Assembly: GCA_025964675.1 (NCBI GenBank)
Contig: JAOPYI010000022.1
Location: 1 to 47,396 of the forward strand
Reading direction: 5' to 3'
Origin: Sphaerisporangium sp.
GTDB lineage: Bacteria > Actinomycetota > Actinomycetes > Streptosporangiales > Streptosporangiaceae
Length of the DNA stretch: 47,396 bases
The translations under genes and the position numbers were made by a program. The notes beneath the pieces were generated by a model. It made no database searches, was not told where the DNA came from, and saw only the letters and a program-made list of their open reading frames with translations. This document shows positions 23,470-30,648 of the stretch, piece after piece. Positions within the stretch are counted from its first letter, which is position 1, and each line of letters begins with the position of its first letter.

Positions 23470-23964
23470 TCAGACGGCGGCGTGCAGCCAGCGGACGGGG
23501 GCCCCGTCGCCGGCGTAGCGGAACGGCTCGAGCTCTTCGTCCCACTGCTTGCCGAGCAGCTTGTCGAGCTCTTCCTCGAGGACGACCCGGCCCTGCGCCG
23601 CCATGAGCATGACGTTGCGGAGCCTGTCCTCGGGGATCAGGATGTCGCCGGACACCCCGACCACGGCCGTGAAGGCACCGAGGGTCGGCGTGTAGGCGTG
23701 CCGCGAGCCGTCCACCCCCGAGGACGCGTCCTCGGTGATCTCGAACCGGATGCGCTGCCAGCCCATGAGTGATGACGTGATCGCCGAGGCGGTGCCGGGG
23801 CGACCCTCCCACTCAGCCTGGGTTCGCACGGTGCCGGGCTGCGCCGGCTGCGGAGTCCAGGACAGGTCGACGGGTATGCCAAGAACACCCGCGACCGCCC
23901 ATTCGATGTGCGGGCACAGCGCGGGCTGAGCCGAGTGGACGTACAGCACGCCACGAGCAGACAC
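23470..23964 (-). CDS. DUF3145 family protein
   Basis: This 164-residue protein is recognised as DUF3145, an actinobacterial family of unknown function. Segments are RGVLYVHSAQPALCPHIEWAV near the N-terminus, VDLSWTPQPAQPGTVRTQ, GWQRIRFEITEDASSGVDG and ILIPEDRLRNVM. The C-terminus EELDKLLGKQWDEELEPFR looks helical and acidic. No catalytic motif is clear. GTG 23964 has GGGAGG 5 nt upstream. The family often lies near fatty acid genes in actinomycetes, as here. Confidence 0.87.
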   Translation of the reverse strand: MSARGVLYVHSAQPALCPHIEWAVAGVLGIPVDLSWTPQPAQPGTVRTQAEWEGRPGTASAITSSLMGWQRIRFEITEDASSGVDGSRHAYTPTLGAFTAVVGVSGDILIPEDRLRNVMLMAAQGRVVLEEELDKLLGKQWDEELEPFRYAGDGAPVRWLHAAV

Positions 23965-24092
23965 CGGACCTCCCGTTTCGTACGAGGTGCGCCTTCCCCA
24001 ACGTCCTCATACTGGGATGATCACAAGTGACTGAGGGAGAGACTACCGTCCGTCGTGGCGGGGCACCAGAGCCGGGTCATACCTAATCACGC

Positions 24093-24124
24093 TTGGCAAC
24101 TCTCCGCATGGGGAAAGATACATT
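24093..24124 (+). promoter_or_regulatory. possible promoter of the subtilase-sigma-CHAT cassette
   Basis: A -35-like TTGGCA (24093-24098) is followed after 18-20 bp by an AT-rich GATACATT (24117-24124). The fit to a -10 box is only partial. It would give a leader of roughly 25-30 nt before GTG 24156. An ECF-type promoter cannot be excluded. Confidence 0.3.
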
Positions 24125-24155
24125 CCGTGTTTACCTCCCCCATAAGGAGCCGCCG

Positions 24156-25187
24156 GTGAACGTGCAGGTAGTCGAGCACACTCCCGGGCGGAGCGCCCTC
24201 ATACGGCCGGGCGTCCTCCTCTCCCGGTCCCCAAGCGCCGCCGGGCGGTGGACCCAGACGGTCGAGAGCCTCGACGGGCTCTACGTCGTACGACTGTCAC
24301 CGGGAGCCGACCCCTGCGAGATCGCCGCCACGCTCTCGGAGGCGGGGCACGAGGTGTCGCCCAACCACGTCGTGATCGGCCAGCCGCTGTTCTTCGGCGG
24401 CCCCACCGGAGCGCCGCTTCCCGCCGCCGCCCCGGCGTACGATCCGGGAGAGCCGTCGCGGGTGACGGTAGGGCTGCTTGACACCGGCGTGGCCCCGCAT
24501 CCGTGGTTCAGCGGCACCGAGTGGTTCCAAGACCAGCCCGGCGAGGTCCTCGACGCCGACGGCGACGGGCTCCTCGACCTCCAGGCCGGGCACGGCACCT
24601 TCATCGCGGGCCTGGTGCTCCGCCAGGCTCCCGGCGTGCGGCTGCGTGTGCTGAGGGTGCTGGACAGCCACGGGGTGGGCGACGAGATCGGCGTGCTCCG
24701 CGCCCTGAGCCACCTGCGCGACACCCGCGTCGACGTGCTGGTGCTGTCGTTCGGCTGCTTCACCTACGACGACAGGCCGTCGCCTTTGCTGGAGCGCGCG
24801 CTCGCCGCGTTCCCCGACACGGTGATCGTGGCCTGCGCGGGGAACACCGCCTCCCCACGGCCCTTCTGGCCCGCCGCGCTGCCTCGTGTGATCGCCGTGG
24901 GTGCCCTCGATTCCGGAGAAAGCGGGCGCGCGAGGTTCTCCGCGTACGGCCCCTGGGTGGACGCCTGCGCTCGTGGTGAAGCGTTGACCAGCAGTTTCGT
25001 GGACTTTGATCATTTCAGGAGCTACGCCGTCTGGAGCGGCACGTCCTTCTCGGCCGCCGTGGTGGCCGGGGCCATCGCCGCCGCCGCCCGGCACATGTCC
25101 CCAGGTGAGGCCGCGAGCCACGTGCTCGATCCGGGACATGGCAGGCGATTCCCTGATCTCGGGGTCTCCGTCCCCGCGCCCCGCTAG
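24156..25187 (+). CDS. intracellular subtilase (S8 serine protease)
   Basis: This 343-residue subtilisin-fold protease has all catalytic residues: Asp109 (GLLDTGVAPH), His146 (GHGTFIAG), oxyanion Asn230 (ACAGNTA) and Ser297 (SGTSFSAAVVAG). A DADGDGLLD loop before His146 resembles a calcium site. No signal peptide or membrane segment is present, so it should act in the cytoplasm. The first 80 or so residues (GLYVVRLSPGADP...SPNHVVIG) may form a small inhibitor-like domain. GTG 24156 has AAGGAG exactly 6 nt upstream; TTG 24093 and ATG 24108 are in frame but unsupported. It is followed by sigma, unknown and CHAT genes on the same strand, and probably works with them. Confidence 0.87.
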   Translation: MNVQVVEHTPGRSALIRPGVLLSRSPSAAGRWTQTVESLDGLYVVRLSPGADPCEIAATLSEAGHEVSPNHVVIGQPLFFGGPTGAPLPAAAPAYDPGEPSRVTVGLLDTGVAPHPWFSGTEWFQDQPGEVLDADGDGLLDLQAGHGTFIAGLVLRQAPGVRLRVLRVLDSHGVGDEIGVLRALSHLRDTRVDVLVLSFGCFTYDDRPSPLLERALAAFPDTVIVACAGNTASPRPFWPAALPRVIAVGALDSGESGRARFSAYGPWVDACARGEALTSSFVDFDHFRSYAVWSGTSFSAAVVAGAIAAAARHMSPGEAASHVLDPGHGRRFPDLGVSVPAPR

Positions 25188-25230
25188 GGTGATCACAGCA
25201 AGCATCTCCCCCACCACGCAGAGTCATGAA

Positions 25231-25749
25231 ATGCCCTATGATCTCGACCTCCTCGATGAGACGGCCTGGCGCGATCTGGTCGACCGCTTCGGATACCGCA
25301 TGTGGGCCGTCGCCCGGGCGTTCGGCCTCAACTCCACCGACGCCGCTGACGCGGTGCAGGCCGCGTGGCTCCGGCTGGTCGAGAGCGCTCACACGATCCG
25401 CGACCCCGAGCGGGTCGGCGCCTGGCTGGTCACGACGACGCGCCACGAGGCGGCGCGGATCCTCCGGGGCCGTGCGGGTGACGCGCCGACCGGCCTGCCC
25501 GACGAGATCCCGGCGCCGGACGGCGACCCCGTGGCGGTGATGCTCACCGAGGAGCACGGGCGGCGGCTCTGGGCGGCCGTCGACACGCTGCCCATGCCTT
25601 GCCGCTCGCTGCTCCGGCTGATCGTGGCCGCCCCCGAGGCCGGCTACGCCCAGCTCGCCAGGCGCCTCGACATGCCCATCGGCAGCATCGGACCGACCCG
25701 CATCCGCTGTCTCAAGCGCCTGCGGTCCCTCATGGAGGACGAGCGGTGA
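25231..25749 (+). CDS. ECF-type RNA polymerase sigma factor
   Basis: This 172-residue sigma-70-family factor has only regions 2 and 4. Region 2 spans about 10-70 (FGYRMWAVARAFGL...DAVQAAWLRLVES...VGAWLVTTTRHEA). Region 4 spans about 115-165 (LPMPCRSLLRLIVAA...YAQLARRLDMPIGSIGPTR). A linker rich in Asp, Pro and Gly joins them. No typical zinc-binding anti-sigma gene follows; the next gene overlaps by GTGA and is unlike known anti-sigmas. ATG 25231 begins at the conserved domain but its ribosome site is weak. TAGGGT at 25185-25190 may be a -10 box within the subtilase stop. Confidence 0.85.
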   Translation: MPYDLDLLDETAWRDLVDRFGYRMWAVARAFGLNSTDAADAVQAAWLRLVESAHTIRDPERVGAWLVTTTRHEAARILRGRAGDAPTGLPDEIPAPDGDPVAVMLTEEHGRRLWAAVDTLPMPCRSLLRLIVAAPEAGYAQLARRLDMPIGSIGPTRIRCLKRLRSLMEDER

Positions 25750-26237
25750 ACGACGAGGAATACCTTCTGGCGGCTCTGCGGATCGCCTCGGGCGCCGATC
25801 CGGTGCCCGCACGCGTATCGGTGGAGGCCCGCGCGGTTTACGGGCTGCGCCTGCCTGGAGCCGTGACGGCGGGCCCCGTTGAGCTTCCCACCGACGGGGG
25901 CGCCTGGCCGCTGTCCGGCGTCCGCTCCGCCATCCGTTCCGACGGTTGCTCGGCCGAGGGTGAGCCGCGGCTGCTCCGCTTCGCCGCCGACGGGCTGACC
26001 ATCGACGTCGAGATCACGGTCTGCGACTCCCACCTCGACCTCGCCGGGCAGATGCATCCCGCCCCAGCCAAGGGTGCCCGCGTCGAGATCAGGACACCCC
26101 ACGTCAGCAAGATCCGCTTCCCGTCCGAGACGGGTGAGTTCGCCACCACCGGCCTGCCACACGGCTGGTTGAGCGTGGTCTGCCACCGTCCAGGCGACCC
26201 CCCGGTGGCGACCCGCTGGCACCGCATCCGCCGGTGA
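25746..26237 (+). CDS. unknown protein between sigma factor and CHAT protein
   Basis: I do not recognise a named family for this 163-residue protein. A short helical N-terminus (EEYLLAALRIASGADPVPARV, residues about 4-24) is followed by a beta-rich part that looks like two small sandwiches. The C-terminal one (GARVEIRTPHV...FPSETGEFATTGLPHGWLSV) recalls carboxypeptidase-regulatory or transthyretin-like domains. There is no signal peptide, membrane helix or metal motif. It overlaps the sigma gene at its start and the CHAT gene at its end by GTGA, so the three proteins are made together. It could be an anti-sigma protein, a cleavage substrate or a scaffold. Confidence 0.8.
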   Translation: MNDEEYLLAALRIASGADPVPARVSVEARAVYGLRLPGAVTAGPVELPTDGGAWPLSGVRSAIRSDGCSAEGEPRLLRFAADGLTIDVEITVCDSHLDLAGQMHPAPAKGARVEIRTPHVSKIRFPSETGEFATTGLPHGWLSVVCHRPGDPPVATRWHRIRR

Positions 26238-28846
26238 CCCACCCGAACGACCTCCCCAGACCAGGCGAACCACTGGCAGAGCATCTGAGCCCCGCGGACG
26301 TCCAGGCAGCGTATGGATCTTTCACGGAGCTGGTCGCCGCGGCCGAGGGGGCGGTGCTGATGTCGGGCGCCGATCCGGGCCGGGCTCGTGACCGCGCGGG
26401 AGCCGTGCTGGCCGAGGCGGAGGCACGCGGCTGCGCGGAGGCCATCTCGGTCTCGCACCGGGCGCTGGCGCTCACCGCCCGCGAGTTCGGCCACCTGACG
26501 CTGGCCGCCGAGCACCTCGACCAGGCGGTCGCCGCCGCCCGCGACCTGCCGGAACGCGCCGCCCAGGCCCGGCTCTCGCTGGTGACGGTCCGCGCCCACC
26601 TCGGCGATCCCGTGGGCGCGCTTCGCGTGGCCGACCTCGCGGAAGGGCATCTGACCGGCCTCGACCCGGCGAGGCTCGGCGTGCAGCGCGCCGTCGCGCT
26701 GGTCCAGCTCGGCAGGTCCGATGAGGCGGTGGCCCACTGCGACAGGGCCGTCTCGCTGCTCACGGGGGCAGAGGACCCGCGCTTCCTGGCCGGAGCCCTG
26801 CTCAACCGGGGCATCGCCCACACCTACCTGGAGCGGTACGACGCCGCCTCGCGTGACCTGTCGAGCTGCGTGACCATCGCCAGGGAGGCGGGGCTGGACC
26901 ACCTCGTGACCCTGGCCGAGGCCAACCTGCCGTTCGTCGCGACCCGGCGCGGCGACATCCCTGCCGCCTTCGCGGGCTACCACGCCGCGCAGGCGACGCT
27001 GACGGGCTACCCCGAGCGGCTCGCCGCGATGCGGGCCGACTTCGCGGGCGCACTGCTCGCCGCCTACCTGCCCGGGGAGGCCCGCGCGCTGCTCTCCCAG
27101 GCGGTCCCCGAGCTCGCCGCCGCGGGCGCGCGGGTCGCGCTCGCGGAGTCCCGCCTGCTCCTTGCCCAGGTCGAGCTGCTGGCCGGCGATCCGCACGAGG
27201 CCGGGATCAACGCCGAGCTGGCGGCCGGCGAGCTGACCGGCCAGGGACGCCACGCCTTGGTGCCGCTGGCCGTGGAGGTGGCGCTGCGGGCCCGCCTCGC
27301 CACCGAGTGCCCGACGCCCGAGCTGCTCGCGGAGGCACGGGCGCTGGCCGGGCGCCTCGCCGCGGAAGGGTGGACGGGGCCGGCCGCGGCGCTACGGCTC
27401 ACCGCCGCCGAGCTGGCGGTGACGCTGGGCGACCAGCCCGCCACGGAGGCCGAGCTCCGCCTCGTCGCCGGCGAGCCCGCCACTGGGCGCACGCATCGCG
27501 TCGTACGCCACCACGCCGTGGCCCTCGGGCTGAGCCTTCGAGGTGACCGGCCGGGCGCCTTCGCCGCGCTGCGGGCGGGCCTCGCGGAGGCCACCGAAGG
27601 CGGCGAGCGTCTCGGCGACCCGGGGGTACGCGCCCACGCCATACGGGCGGGCGAGCGGCTCGCGGACTTCGGCCTCTCGCTCGCGCTGAGCGACGGGCAG
27701 CCCGAGACCGTGCTCGGCTGGGCGGAGCACTGGCGCGCGGTGCGACGCGGACGGGCCGGAGAGCCACTGGCGGTCGAACTGCTGCGTGCCGCGCTCGGCG
27801 ACGCCGTACTGATCGAGACGGTCAGGCACGGTGACCGGCTCGCCGCCGTGGTCCTCACCGCCGACCTCTGCGTGCTGCGACCGCTCGGCTCCTACACGGC
27901 CGCCGCCGAGGCGACGATCCGGCTCAGGTACGGCCTGCGGCGCGCGGGCCTGCGTGACACGGGCACTCGCAACGGGGTGACGAGGGAGGCAGAGCAGCTC
28001 GCGGAACGGCTGCTCGCACCGCTGGCCGGCGACATCCGGGACCGGCCGGTCGTGATCGTACCGACCGGCGCGCTGCACACCCTGCCGTGGCCGGTCCTCC
28101 CTCCCTTCCGGGGGCGGCCGACCTGCGTGGCCTCCAGCGCGGACGCCTGGCGGCACGCGTCCGGCCCCGGCCTGACCACGGAAACGGATCCACGGCCTGC
28201 AGGCCATGCCGATCTCCGTGGTCGCGCCGAGTCGGGGCAGGCCGGCAGGAGCGATTCTTCACAGCTGTGGCCTATGTCTTCGCGGGCCGACTCGCCGCGG
28301 GTGGCCGCTGTGGCGGGGCCGGGGCTCGATCATGCCGAGGAGGAGGCGGCGATGGTCGTCCGCACCTACGACAAGGCCGGGGCCGTACAGGTCGGGGCCA
28401 AGATCACCGATGTCCTCGAAGTGCTTCAGCGGGCCGAGATCGCGCACATCGCCGCCCATGGATACTTCTGCGCCCCGAGCCCACTGCTGTCGAGCCTTTC
28501 CCTGGACGACGGCCCGCTGATGGCCTACGACCTGCTCCGGCTGAGCCGGGTGCCGGGGCTGGTGGTGCTGTCGGCCTGCGACTCAGGCATGGCCCACGCC
28601 CCGGTCGACGGAGCCCCTTTGGGCCTCGCCGGCGCGTTCCTCGATCGGGGCACCACCTGCGTGGTCGCCGGCCTCGTCCCCGTGCGTGACGACGAGGCCC
28701 TGACGCTCATGACGCTCTTCCACGCTCTGCTGGTCTCAGGGCACACCCCGGCGGAGGCGCTCGCCATGGCGAGCGAGAAGACAGGCGTCGCCGGATTCGC
28801 CTGTTTCGGCTCCCTCGGGCGCCCGATCAACCTCCCCAGGGGATAG
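26234..28846 (+). CDS. TPR-CHAT protein (caspase-like protease)
   Basis: This 870-residue protein has a long helical-repeat N-terminus (about 40-550, TPR-like, e.g. LAAEHLDQAVAAARDLPERA and LLNRGIAHTYLERYDAASRD) and a C-terminal CHAT domain (about 580-870). The CHAT dyad is intact: His742 in IAHIAAHGYF and Cys782 in VLSACDSGM. Family members cleave protein partners, for instance Csx29 in type III-E CRISPR and separase-related proteins. A low-complexity insert (about 655-690) interrupts the CHAT domain. There is no signal peptide, so it is cytoplasmic. GTG 26234 overlaps the preceding stop. The neighbouring sigma factor and subtilase suggest proteolytic control of transcription. Confidence 0.88.
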   Translation: MTHPNDLPRPGEPLAEHLSPADVQAAYGSFTELVAAAEGAVLMSGADPGRARDRAGAVLAEAEARGCAEAISVSHRALALTAREFGHLTLAAEHLDQAVAAARDLPERAAQARLSLVTVRAHLGDPVGALRVADLAEGHLTGLDPARLGVQRAVALVQLGRSDEAVAHCDRAVSLLTGAEDPRFLAGALLNRGIAHTYLERYDAASRDLSSCVTIAREAGLDHLVTLAEANLPFVATRRGDIPAAFAGYHAAQATLTGYPERLAAMRADFAGALLAAYLPGEARALLSQAVPELAAAGARVALAESRLLLAQVELLAGDPHEAGINAELAAGELTGQGRHALVPLAVEVALRARLATECPTPELLAEARALAGRLAAEGWTGPAAALRLTAAELAVTLGDQPATEAELRLVAGEPATGRTHRVVRHHAVALGLSLRGDRPGAFAALRAGLAEATEGGERLGDPGVRAHAIRAGERLADFGLSLALSDGQPETVLGWAEHWRAVRRGRAGEPLAVELLRAALGDAVLIETVRHGDRLAAVVLTADLCVLRPLGSYTAAAEATIRLRYGLRRAGLRDTGTRNGVTREAEQLAERLLAPLAGDIRDRPVVIVPTGALHTLPWPVLPPFRGRPTCVASSADAWRHASGPGLTTETDPRPAGHADLRGRAESGQAGRSDSSQLWPMSSRADSPRVAAVAGPGLDHAEEEAAMVVRTYDKAGAVQVGAKITDVLEVLQRAEIAHIAAHGYFCAPSPLLSSLSLDDGPLMAYDLLRLSRVPGLVVLSACDSGMAHAPVDGAPLGLAGAFLDRGTTCVVAGLVPVRDDEALTLMTLFHALLVSGHTPAEALAMASEKTGVAGFACFGSLGRPINLPRG

Positions 28847-29906: not shown

Positions 29907-30497
29907 TCAGCCCGCCGCGCGGGCGGTCGCCTCGGAGAGGGCCTTGGCGAAGGCCAGGACGTTTCCTACGGCTTCCGGCCCGTCCGCCGCCTCGCTGACC
30001 CGCAGCGACAGGTCGTCGGCGGTGATCGCACCGGTGTAGCCGTGGTCGGCCTCGCAGTTCTCGTCCCCGCAGGTGGCGGGCTCCAGGTCGACGTGGGAGA
30101 TCGCGCCCCAGCCGATCGTGAGCGTCACCTCGGTCGGGGGCACGCCGGGCACGTACGTGGCGGGGTCGGGGACCACCCGGGTGACCGCCACGGACTGGAC
30201 GCGGCTGAGGCGCACGGCCTCCGTGGTCGTGGACGCATGTGAGGTGGGCACGCCGTCGGCGGGCGGGTGCTCGTCGGTGTGGCACACGAGAAGCCGTGTG
30301 GGCGAGAGGACCACCACGGTGACGTGCCTGCGCACCTCCATCGCCGGATCGAAGGTGGCCTCATGGTGCACGACGTACGCCGTGACCTGCTCCTTGCCCA
30401 GCGCGGACTCCGCCGCGTCGGCCACGAGATCGGGGTAGTAGCCGCTGCGTTCGATAGCCTCGCGCAAACCAGCGGCCGAGACTCGGGTTTCCCTCAT
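29907..30497 (-). CDS. DUF5998 family protein
   Basis: I recognise this 196-residue protein as DUF5998, an actinobacterial family of unknown function. An N-terminal helical segment (LREAIERSGYYPDLVADAAE) precedes a beta-rich core with AYVVHHEATFDPAMEVRRHV, TRLLVCHTDEHP and LTIGWGAISHVDLEP. A CGDENCEADHGY motif about residue 145 could bind metal. ATG 30497 has AGGATGG just upstream. It follows the large acyltransferase gene on the same strand after 151 bp. Confidence 0.75.
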   Translation of the reverse strand: MRETRVSAAGLREAIERSGYYPDLVADAAESALGKEQVTAYVVHHEATFDPAMEVRRHVTVVVLSPTRLLVCHTDEHPPADGVPTSHASTTTEAVRLSRVQSVAVTRVVPDPATYVPGVPPTEVTLTIGWGAISHVDLEPATCGDENCEADHGYTGAITADDLSLRVSEAADGPEAVGNVLAFAKALSEATARAAG

Positions 30498-30648
30498 GGG
30501 TCCATCCTGCCCTGTCTCGCCATGGTGTTTCACCTCACAGCCACCTGCCTCGACAGCCTTCGGCGGAGAACGGACCGGCGGGGCCGGAGCGTCTCCGTTC
30601 CGCGGTCCCTGGACGTGTACATGGTCACGCGAGCCCCTTTCGTCCCTT

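Follow-up and report, generated by a model that had tools for sequence, protein, structure and literature searches.

Among the sigma factors controlled by proteolysis, PMC8999054 (excerpt) includes ECF54, a group of extracytoplasmic function (ECF) sigma factors without a classical anti-sigma factor, for which it cites Casas-Pastor 2021 and Huang 2015. In the same excerpt, the genes of this group, with an example from an actinobacterium, stand beside genes for subtilase, CHAT and 'carboxypeptidase' domains, and proteolytic control of the sigma factor is proposed from this gene context (PMC8999054). Here we describe four genes at 24156-28846 of a 47,396-nucleotide stretch of Sphaerisporangium sp. 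DNA (contig JAOPYI010000022.1; 'the window'), which lie between DUF3145 and rhodanese genes and encode an S8 subtilase (S8), an ECF sigma factor (sigma), a small protein (UNK) and a cysteine protease with tetratricopeptide repeat (TPR) and CHAT domains (CHAT). With CHAT and subtilase genes next to an ECF sigma gene in an actinobacterium, the locus has the ECF54 context and is ECF54-like on that basis. The gene company itself is therefore already in print in the excerpted ECF54 text, and the suspicion of the initial annotation that the gene order might be known was right (PMC8999054).

Judged from sequence comparison, the four genes are very probably one protease-controlled gene switch, in which sigma and UNK are one almost inseparable unit and CHAT and S8 a second, with genomes nearly always keeping both. 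In the excerpted ECF54 text the proteases control the sigma factor themselves, whereas here a small CarboxypepD_reg-like protein pairs with the sigma factor and the system is divided into two units. The system thus appears split into parts that are kept together even when unlinked, with CHAT placed between S8 and sigma-UNK. In the open-licence literature we found neither experimental work on the quartet nor the two-unit structure, a non-catalytic role of the 'carboxypeptidase' as partner of sigma, the linker arginine discussed below or the fold link to DdvA; an excerpt of PMC7159879 contains neither 'chat' nor 'sigma factor'.

Similar parts occur in the type III-E CASP (Craspase) systems, which combine Csx29, Csx30 and CASP-sigma (PMC10028731, excerpt). 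Both share a TPR-CHAT protease with a His/Cys dyad, an ECF sigma factor and a third protein, and in a fold comparison the structure model of the window TPR-CHAT protein matches Csx29 structures and DdvA. In contrast to type III-E systems, the window CHAT scores 22 bits against the Csx29 profile NF041237 (cut-off 300), an extra S8 protease is present, the locus is part of core chromosomal synteny, and UNK is not recognisably Csx30. The parallel to Csx29, Csx30 and CASP-sigma drawn in the initial annotation is therefore reasonable with respect to the Csx29 fold match and the tight UNK-sigma pairing, but no UNK-Csx30 relation is detectable. In line with the initial annotation, the parts appear to stand without CRISPR: RAMP (PF03787) is absent from the 99.49% complete genome, with the same search positive in 4 of 14 control genomes, and no CRISPR array or CRISPR-like repeat is seen in the window at 15000-38000. 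A CRISPR setting was rejected on these grounds.

Other described systems differ further. In Myxococcus xanthus, the ECF sigma factor DdvS is under DdvA, a protein with a TPR-CHAT-like fold (PDB 8rot, 8rw5; PMC4374960, excerpt). DdvA is a transmembrane anti-sigma factor according to the PDB title, whereas the window CHAT lacks a membrane helix and is a different protein from UNK. The EACC2-caspase neighbourhoods, with an ECF sigma factor and DUF1822, have been proposed as one signalling system and likewise combine a caspase-like protease, an ECF sigma factor and a third protein (PMC8195603, excerpt), but their protease architecture is different and the four window proteins have no DUF1822 match. 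Separase is a eukaryotic cohesin protease with no sigma factor.

The initial annotation had described four same-strand genes, the last three overlapping by GTGA, that encode two cytoplasmic proteases, a two-domain sigma factor and a 163-residue protein of unknown family; all of this stood. S8 matches Peptidase_S8 (PF00082; E 5e-23, 82.3 bits against a cut-off of 21.8), and its Asp109, His146 and Ser297 are invariant in 15/15 and 74/74 aligned rows. CHAT matches PF12770 (E 1.6e-31, 110.2 bits, cut-off 24) plus TPR repeats, with a TPR solenoid at about 20-504 and the CHAT domain at 525-865. Its His742 and Cys782 are conserved in 18/18, 43/43 and 74/78 rows, the remaining four rows having a gap, so that both sets of catalytic residues are invariant wherever alignable. 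The sigma factor matches Sigma70_r2 (E 4.2e-11) and TIGR02937 (51.5 bits, cut-off 42.9), and for UNK there is no hit in Pfam or NCBIfam up to E 1, nor in PADLOC up to E 0.01. Hydropathy reveals no membrane helix or signal peptide in any of the four proteins (in CHAT the top 19-residue value is 1.43, hence no transmembrane segment). The overlaps are real at sigma/UNK (25746-25749) and UNK/CHAT (26234-26237); among 77 named relatives a 4-nucleotide overlap is found at sigma/UNK in 56 and at UNK/CHAT in only 11.

The initial annotation had made its reading depend on co-occurrence of the genes in other genomes, and this was found. A CHAT alignment, used to scan named genomes without regard to neighbouring genes, gave 78 loci, of which 74 carry S8-sigma-UNK-CHAT on one strand; three (L056, L111, L119) lack S8 only, and L055 is broken by a contig end. 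Most of these loci are from Streptosporangiales by title, where synteny alone could explain the co-occurrence, and a wider sample of 148 actinobacterial genomes, at least 83 with a CHAT domain, was therefore taken. We examined 100 CHAT places (the first 100 of 105 after a seeded shuffle, with a maximum of two per genome), drawn from a pool of 148 outside genome G000 among the matches listed. The window clade was delimited at 300 bits, a line chosen once the gap from 316 down to 101 bits had become apparent. S8 and/or sigma-UNK lie within 6 kb of 50 of the 54 window-clade CHATs, against 0 of the 46 other CHATs. Within this distance, 29 clade members have all three partners, 15 have S8 only, five sigma and UNK, and one S8 and UNK; the four without partners (L151, L172, L192, L194) are all at contig ends.

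The association also holds at the level of whole genomes. Among 246 genomes of the phylum, searched for CHAT at E 1e-20 and UNK at E 1e-6 with at most 4 and 15 candidates scored per genome, CHAT was found in 38 and UNK in 24, 23 of which are among the 38 (Fisher p 2.6e-21). The sole genome with UNK but no CHAT match is a fragmented assembly of 590 contigs (G403). The 15 genomes with CHAT and no UNK partly reflect a sensitivity limit: a local search finds UNK near CHAT in seven of nine regions, the remaining two having sigma only (G212) or neither sigma nor UNK (G196). As an outside comparison, 7 of 12 matching plasmid records were inspected, two of them without annotation; in the five annotated stretches no sigma factor is named within 8 kb of CHAT in the incomplete PLSDB gene tables. 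The Sphaerisporangium genome itself holds a second complete set (L033, contig C163:14000-32000), in which CHAT is divergent from S8-sigma-UNK, with identities between the two sets of about 33% for CHAT and 36% for sigma. Its two sigma factors of the quartet type score 255.7 and 223.4 bits (next-best sigma factor 61.2), and its two S8 proteins 524.9 and 335.9 bits (next-best 68.4).

The division into two units emerges from the gene orders. Sigma immediately precedes UNK, on the same strand, in 154 of 160 places, and the complete quartet occurs in about ten gene orders among 168 CHAT places, both counts including some places twice. A FastTree tree of 105 CHATs, of which 65 have all four genes, with one in six common-order L053-L130 rows kept, requires at least 13 order changes; one false extra order, a tandem CHAT pair (L246), stays in this tree count and is left out of the distance correlations below. 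A broken-up quartet tends to fall into [sigma+UNK] and [CHAT+S8], cleanly so in G293, G329 and G264. In the split of G383, CHAT was found without S8, G343 is ambiguous, and besides one full cluster G214 carries further CHAT+S8 pairs and UNK genes that lack a clear sigma. Of the 13 genomes tested from the 15 loci with S8 only, 12 have sigma next to UNK elsewhere (outside the 19 kb around CHAT); the exception, G113, is fragmented and has the sigma factor alone. Two added relatives, G093 and G185, also carry the sigma-UNK pair. Several of these 15 assemblies are fragmented; in the single-contig genomes G149 and G158 it lies more than 1 million bases from CHAT. Since the units are unlinked yet both retained, this is strong evidence for a common function.

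We also compared the proteins by rank correlations of pairwise distances with the other two proteins partialled out, a heuristic that proves no contact. Over 61 loci, with one in eight L053-L130 rows used, the partial r is 0.59 for S8-CHAT, 0.48 for sigma-UNK, 0.39 for UNK-CHAT and 0.36 for sigma-CHAT, values reached by 0 of 999 permutations, and -0.05 for S8-sigma and -0.14 for S8-UNK. This pattern is maintained in 38 loci of the L131-L265 sets and in the 27 rearranged loci among them, with values of 0.58 and 0.67 for sigma-UNK, 0.43 and 0.38 for S8-CHAT, 0.09 and 0.06 for S8-sigma, and -0.20 and -0.04 for S8-UNK; over subsets of the 38 loci, S8-CHAT ranges down to 0.18. The resulting network would place CHAT between S8 and the sigma-UNK pair, and the partnership of sigma with UNK is well supported.

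The AlphaFold2 model of UNK (mean predicted local distance difference test score, pLDDT, 86.8; 69 sequences) has helices at 3-15 and 22-32, a linker at about 45-73 and a beta-sandwich at about 73-162; the linker is of low confidence (pLDDT 51-57 over residues 51-70). The CarboxypepD_reg profile PF13620 (E up to 1) is matched by 6 of 19 UNK relatives (best 0.013) and by 29 of 55 more diverse relatives (best 1.6e-7), the window UNK itself having no match. CarboxypepD_reg is a transthyretin-like, non-catalytic domain. We infer that the 'carboxypeptidase' of the ECF54 literature is probably UNK, a non-catalytic sigma partner, which changes the list of parts. Within the UNK linker, Arg60 is conserved in 68 of 69 rows of one alignment (A7), in 54 of 55 of another (A9), which shares the window row and a few loci with it, and in 76 of 77 named loci. 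Most of its linker neighbours are more variable (V59 33/69 and G58 58/69 in A7; L47 51/55 in A9). Cleavage after Arg is common among caspase-like enzymes, separase and metacaspases for example, and a cut at GVR↓S/G is therefore a concrete prediction.

On this basis we propose a cytoplasmic ECF54-type switch in which UNK would inhibit sigma until CHAT cuts the UNK linker and sets sigma free, a scheme that we consider possible, if somewhat short of probable. The N-terminal helical hairpin of UNK would bind sigma and keep it inactive, while the TPR solenoid of CHAT may sense a ligand or partner. The His742/Cys782 protease would then cut the flexible linker, most likely after Arg60, parting the sigma-binding hairpin from the beta-sandwich. 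Sigma would be freed, perhaps once the hairpin has been degraded further, and could turn on its regulon. Such a cleavage may be likened to the action of Csx29 on Csx30, without CRISPR. S8 would belong with CHAT and not with sigma, as an activator of CHAT, a protease activated by CHAT, the source of a second cut or an effector in a cascade, and the housekeeping-like promoter that may precede S8 would suggest that the parts are made ahead of the signal. More speculatively, the quartet could be a CRISPR-free counterpart of Craspase across Actinomycetota, in which TPR-CHAT cuts a two-domain sigma inhibitor after Arg60 with the subtilase as second protease, and type III-E an RNA-triggered branch of a broader CHAT/ECF principle that includes DdvA; we hold this extension to be doubtful. 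With UNK Arg60 as the one residue to mutate, caspase-like protease-triggered transcription becomes testable outside CRISPR, in ordinary actinomycetes and with E. coli reporters.

Several points weigh against release by cleavage of UNK. No match links UNK to a known anti-sigma family, and Arg60 could serve in binding rather than as the cleavage site. UNK has no NCBIfam match to Csx30, and Csx30 is absent among the fold matches listed, no direct sequence comparison of the two having been made. No natural sigma-UNK or UNK-CHAT fusion occurs in the loci scanned, and UNK lacks such a sigma immediately before it in six of the 160 places. At 12 places of the order sigma-UNK-CHAT ('s> u> C>') a stretch of 6 kb around CHAT showed no S8, which may therefore be dispensable, and in the rearranged subset the S8-CHAT value of 0.38 has a 5-95% range down to 0.04. 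Moreover, the proteolytic control proposed in the excerpt of PMC8999054 from the same gene company has the opposite sign. According to that proposal there is no anti-sigma factor; CHAT and S8 would degrade sigma until a signal blocks them, with UNK as an adaptor that delivers sigma. CHAT indeed co-varies with sigma (0.36) as well as with UNK, but S8-sigma co-variation is nil in all three sets, the sigma gene overlaps UNK in 56 of 77 loci, and the 'carboxypeptidase' counted there as an enzyme would correspond here to a conserved small gene with a regulatory-like domain only. We regard degradation of sigma as unlikely, although it is the strongest of the alternatives.

Slightly less credit is due to a DdvA-like arrangement, in which TPR-CHAT is itself an anti-sigma factor or scaffold that binds the sigma-UNK pair and uses its protease activity for its own release or on S8. 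DdvA, a solved anti-sigma factor of M. xanthus, shares the TPR-CHAT-like fold, its ECF sigma factor DdvS is active once DdvA is inactivated (PMC4374960, excerpt), and CHAT stands between the two pairs in the co-variation network. Pure binding would not require the dyad, however, which is invariant wherever aligned; CHAT has no membrane helix by hydropathy, and the CHAT and sigma genes are often unlinked. We give the same low weight to a death or stress cascade of the two proteases, in which CHAT activates an S8 zymogen or the reverse and sigma-UNK only tunes or reports. CHAT-S8 forms a separate unit at many loci and is the top co-varying pair over the 61 loci (sigma-UNK is top in the 38- and 27-locus sets), but 12 of the 13 genomes with CHAT-S8 only at the locus keep sigma-UNK elsewhere, and 12 places hold sigma-UNK-CHAT without S8 nearby. 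The pairing data are silent on the sign of the effect of UNK, which would also suit a co-activator or chaperone of sigma. Anti-sigma factors are the usual co-translated partners encoded downstream of ECF sigma factors, and a single conserved linker Arg beside a protease gene would fit release by cleavage better, making a co-activator improbable. That the four are chance neighbours without common function is contradicted by the neighbourhood, genome co-occurrence, gene-order and unlinked-pair counts and can be practically dismissed.

Positions of the quartet and of its predicted functional sites in the window
Feature	Position	Strand	Remarks
Promoter-like TTGGCA (24093-24098)-N18-GATACA (24117-24122)	24093..24122	+	5' of S8; tentative element, putative function
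S8 subtilase	24156..25187	+	343 aa from probable start GTG 24156; profile match and catalytic residue alignment
S8 Asp codon	24480..24482	+	catalytic triad
S8 His codon	24591..24593	+	catalytic triad
S8 Ser codon	25044..25046	+	catalytic triad
ECF sigma factor, sigma2 + sigma4	25231..25749	+	172 aa; ATG 25231; ECF54-like by gene context
UNK	25746..26237	+	163 aa; begins in GTGA overlap with sigma stop
UNK Arg60 codon	25923..25925	+	in linker, GVR↓S; candidate site of cleavage or of sigma contact
TPR-CHAT cysteine protease	26234..28846	+	870 aa; GTGA overlap with UNK stop
CHAT His742 codon	28457..28459	+	catalytic dyad
CHAT Cys782 codon	28577..28579	+	catalytic dyad

The start of S8 assumed in the initial annotation, TTG 24093, was not upheld. 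S8 probably begins at GTG 24156, preceded by AAGGAG at 24144-24149, as the residue numbers of that annotation themselves imply, and TTG 24093 is the first triplet of the promoter-like element. TTGNCA-N18-GATACA is exact in 4 of 12 aligned upstream regions (the window, L130, L100 and L067); other S8 upstream regions have variants of the second box, and the element is unrecognisable in L057 and L064. An ECF-type motif is not separable from the general conservation in the aligned upstream regions, and we claim no regulon. The gap between the DUF3145 gene and S8 (23960-24080) is near letter-for-letter conserved across several genera, with the blocks GAGGTGCGCCTTCCCCAACG and GGATGATCACAAGT, which exceeds the need of a simple promoter.

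Further observations concern sigma and UNK. At L273-L278, a block with two ACGTCTG repeats is conserved 5' of the unlinked sigma-UNK pair and may be its promoter; these genomes are closely related. UNK genes without an ECF54-like sigma directly upstream occur at L150, L230, L235, L241 and L244. In Sinosporangium album (L043/L101), the beta-sandwich half of UNK carries an insertion of about 240 residues. A deep-branching family (f49; L257-L260, L264, L265) has the order sigma-UNK-CHAT-S8 with a much diverged UNK, which in L264 was undetected.

The locus is flanked on the left by genes for AccD, DUF3145 and a protein which we take from its sequence to be FabF, and on the right by genes for rhodanese, DUF5998 and a CoA ligase; the left flank is retained in 70 and the right flank in 66 of the 78 loci. 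We rejected a defence island as the main interpretation on account of these flanks, of the PADLOC results, which were weak matches only (subtilase, IetS and BovA profiles), and of a phage search at E 0.01 in which UNK found no match. Defence had been among the roles suggested in the initial annotation, and as a mobile island it is disfavoured by the core chromosomal synteny. The sole Rfam match in the window is a tRNA at 3-74. The DUF5998 protein (29907-30533), beside the CoA ligase, accompanies the quartet at most of the 78 loci.

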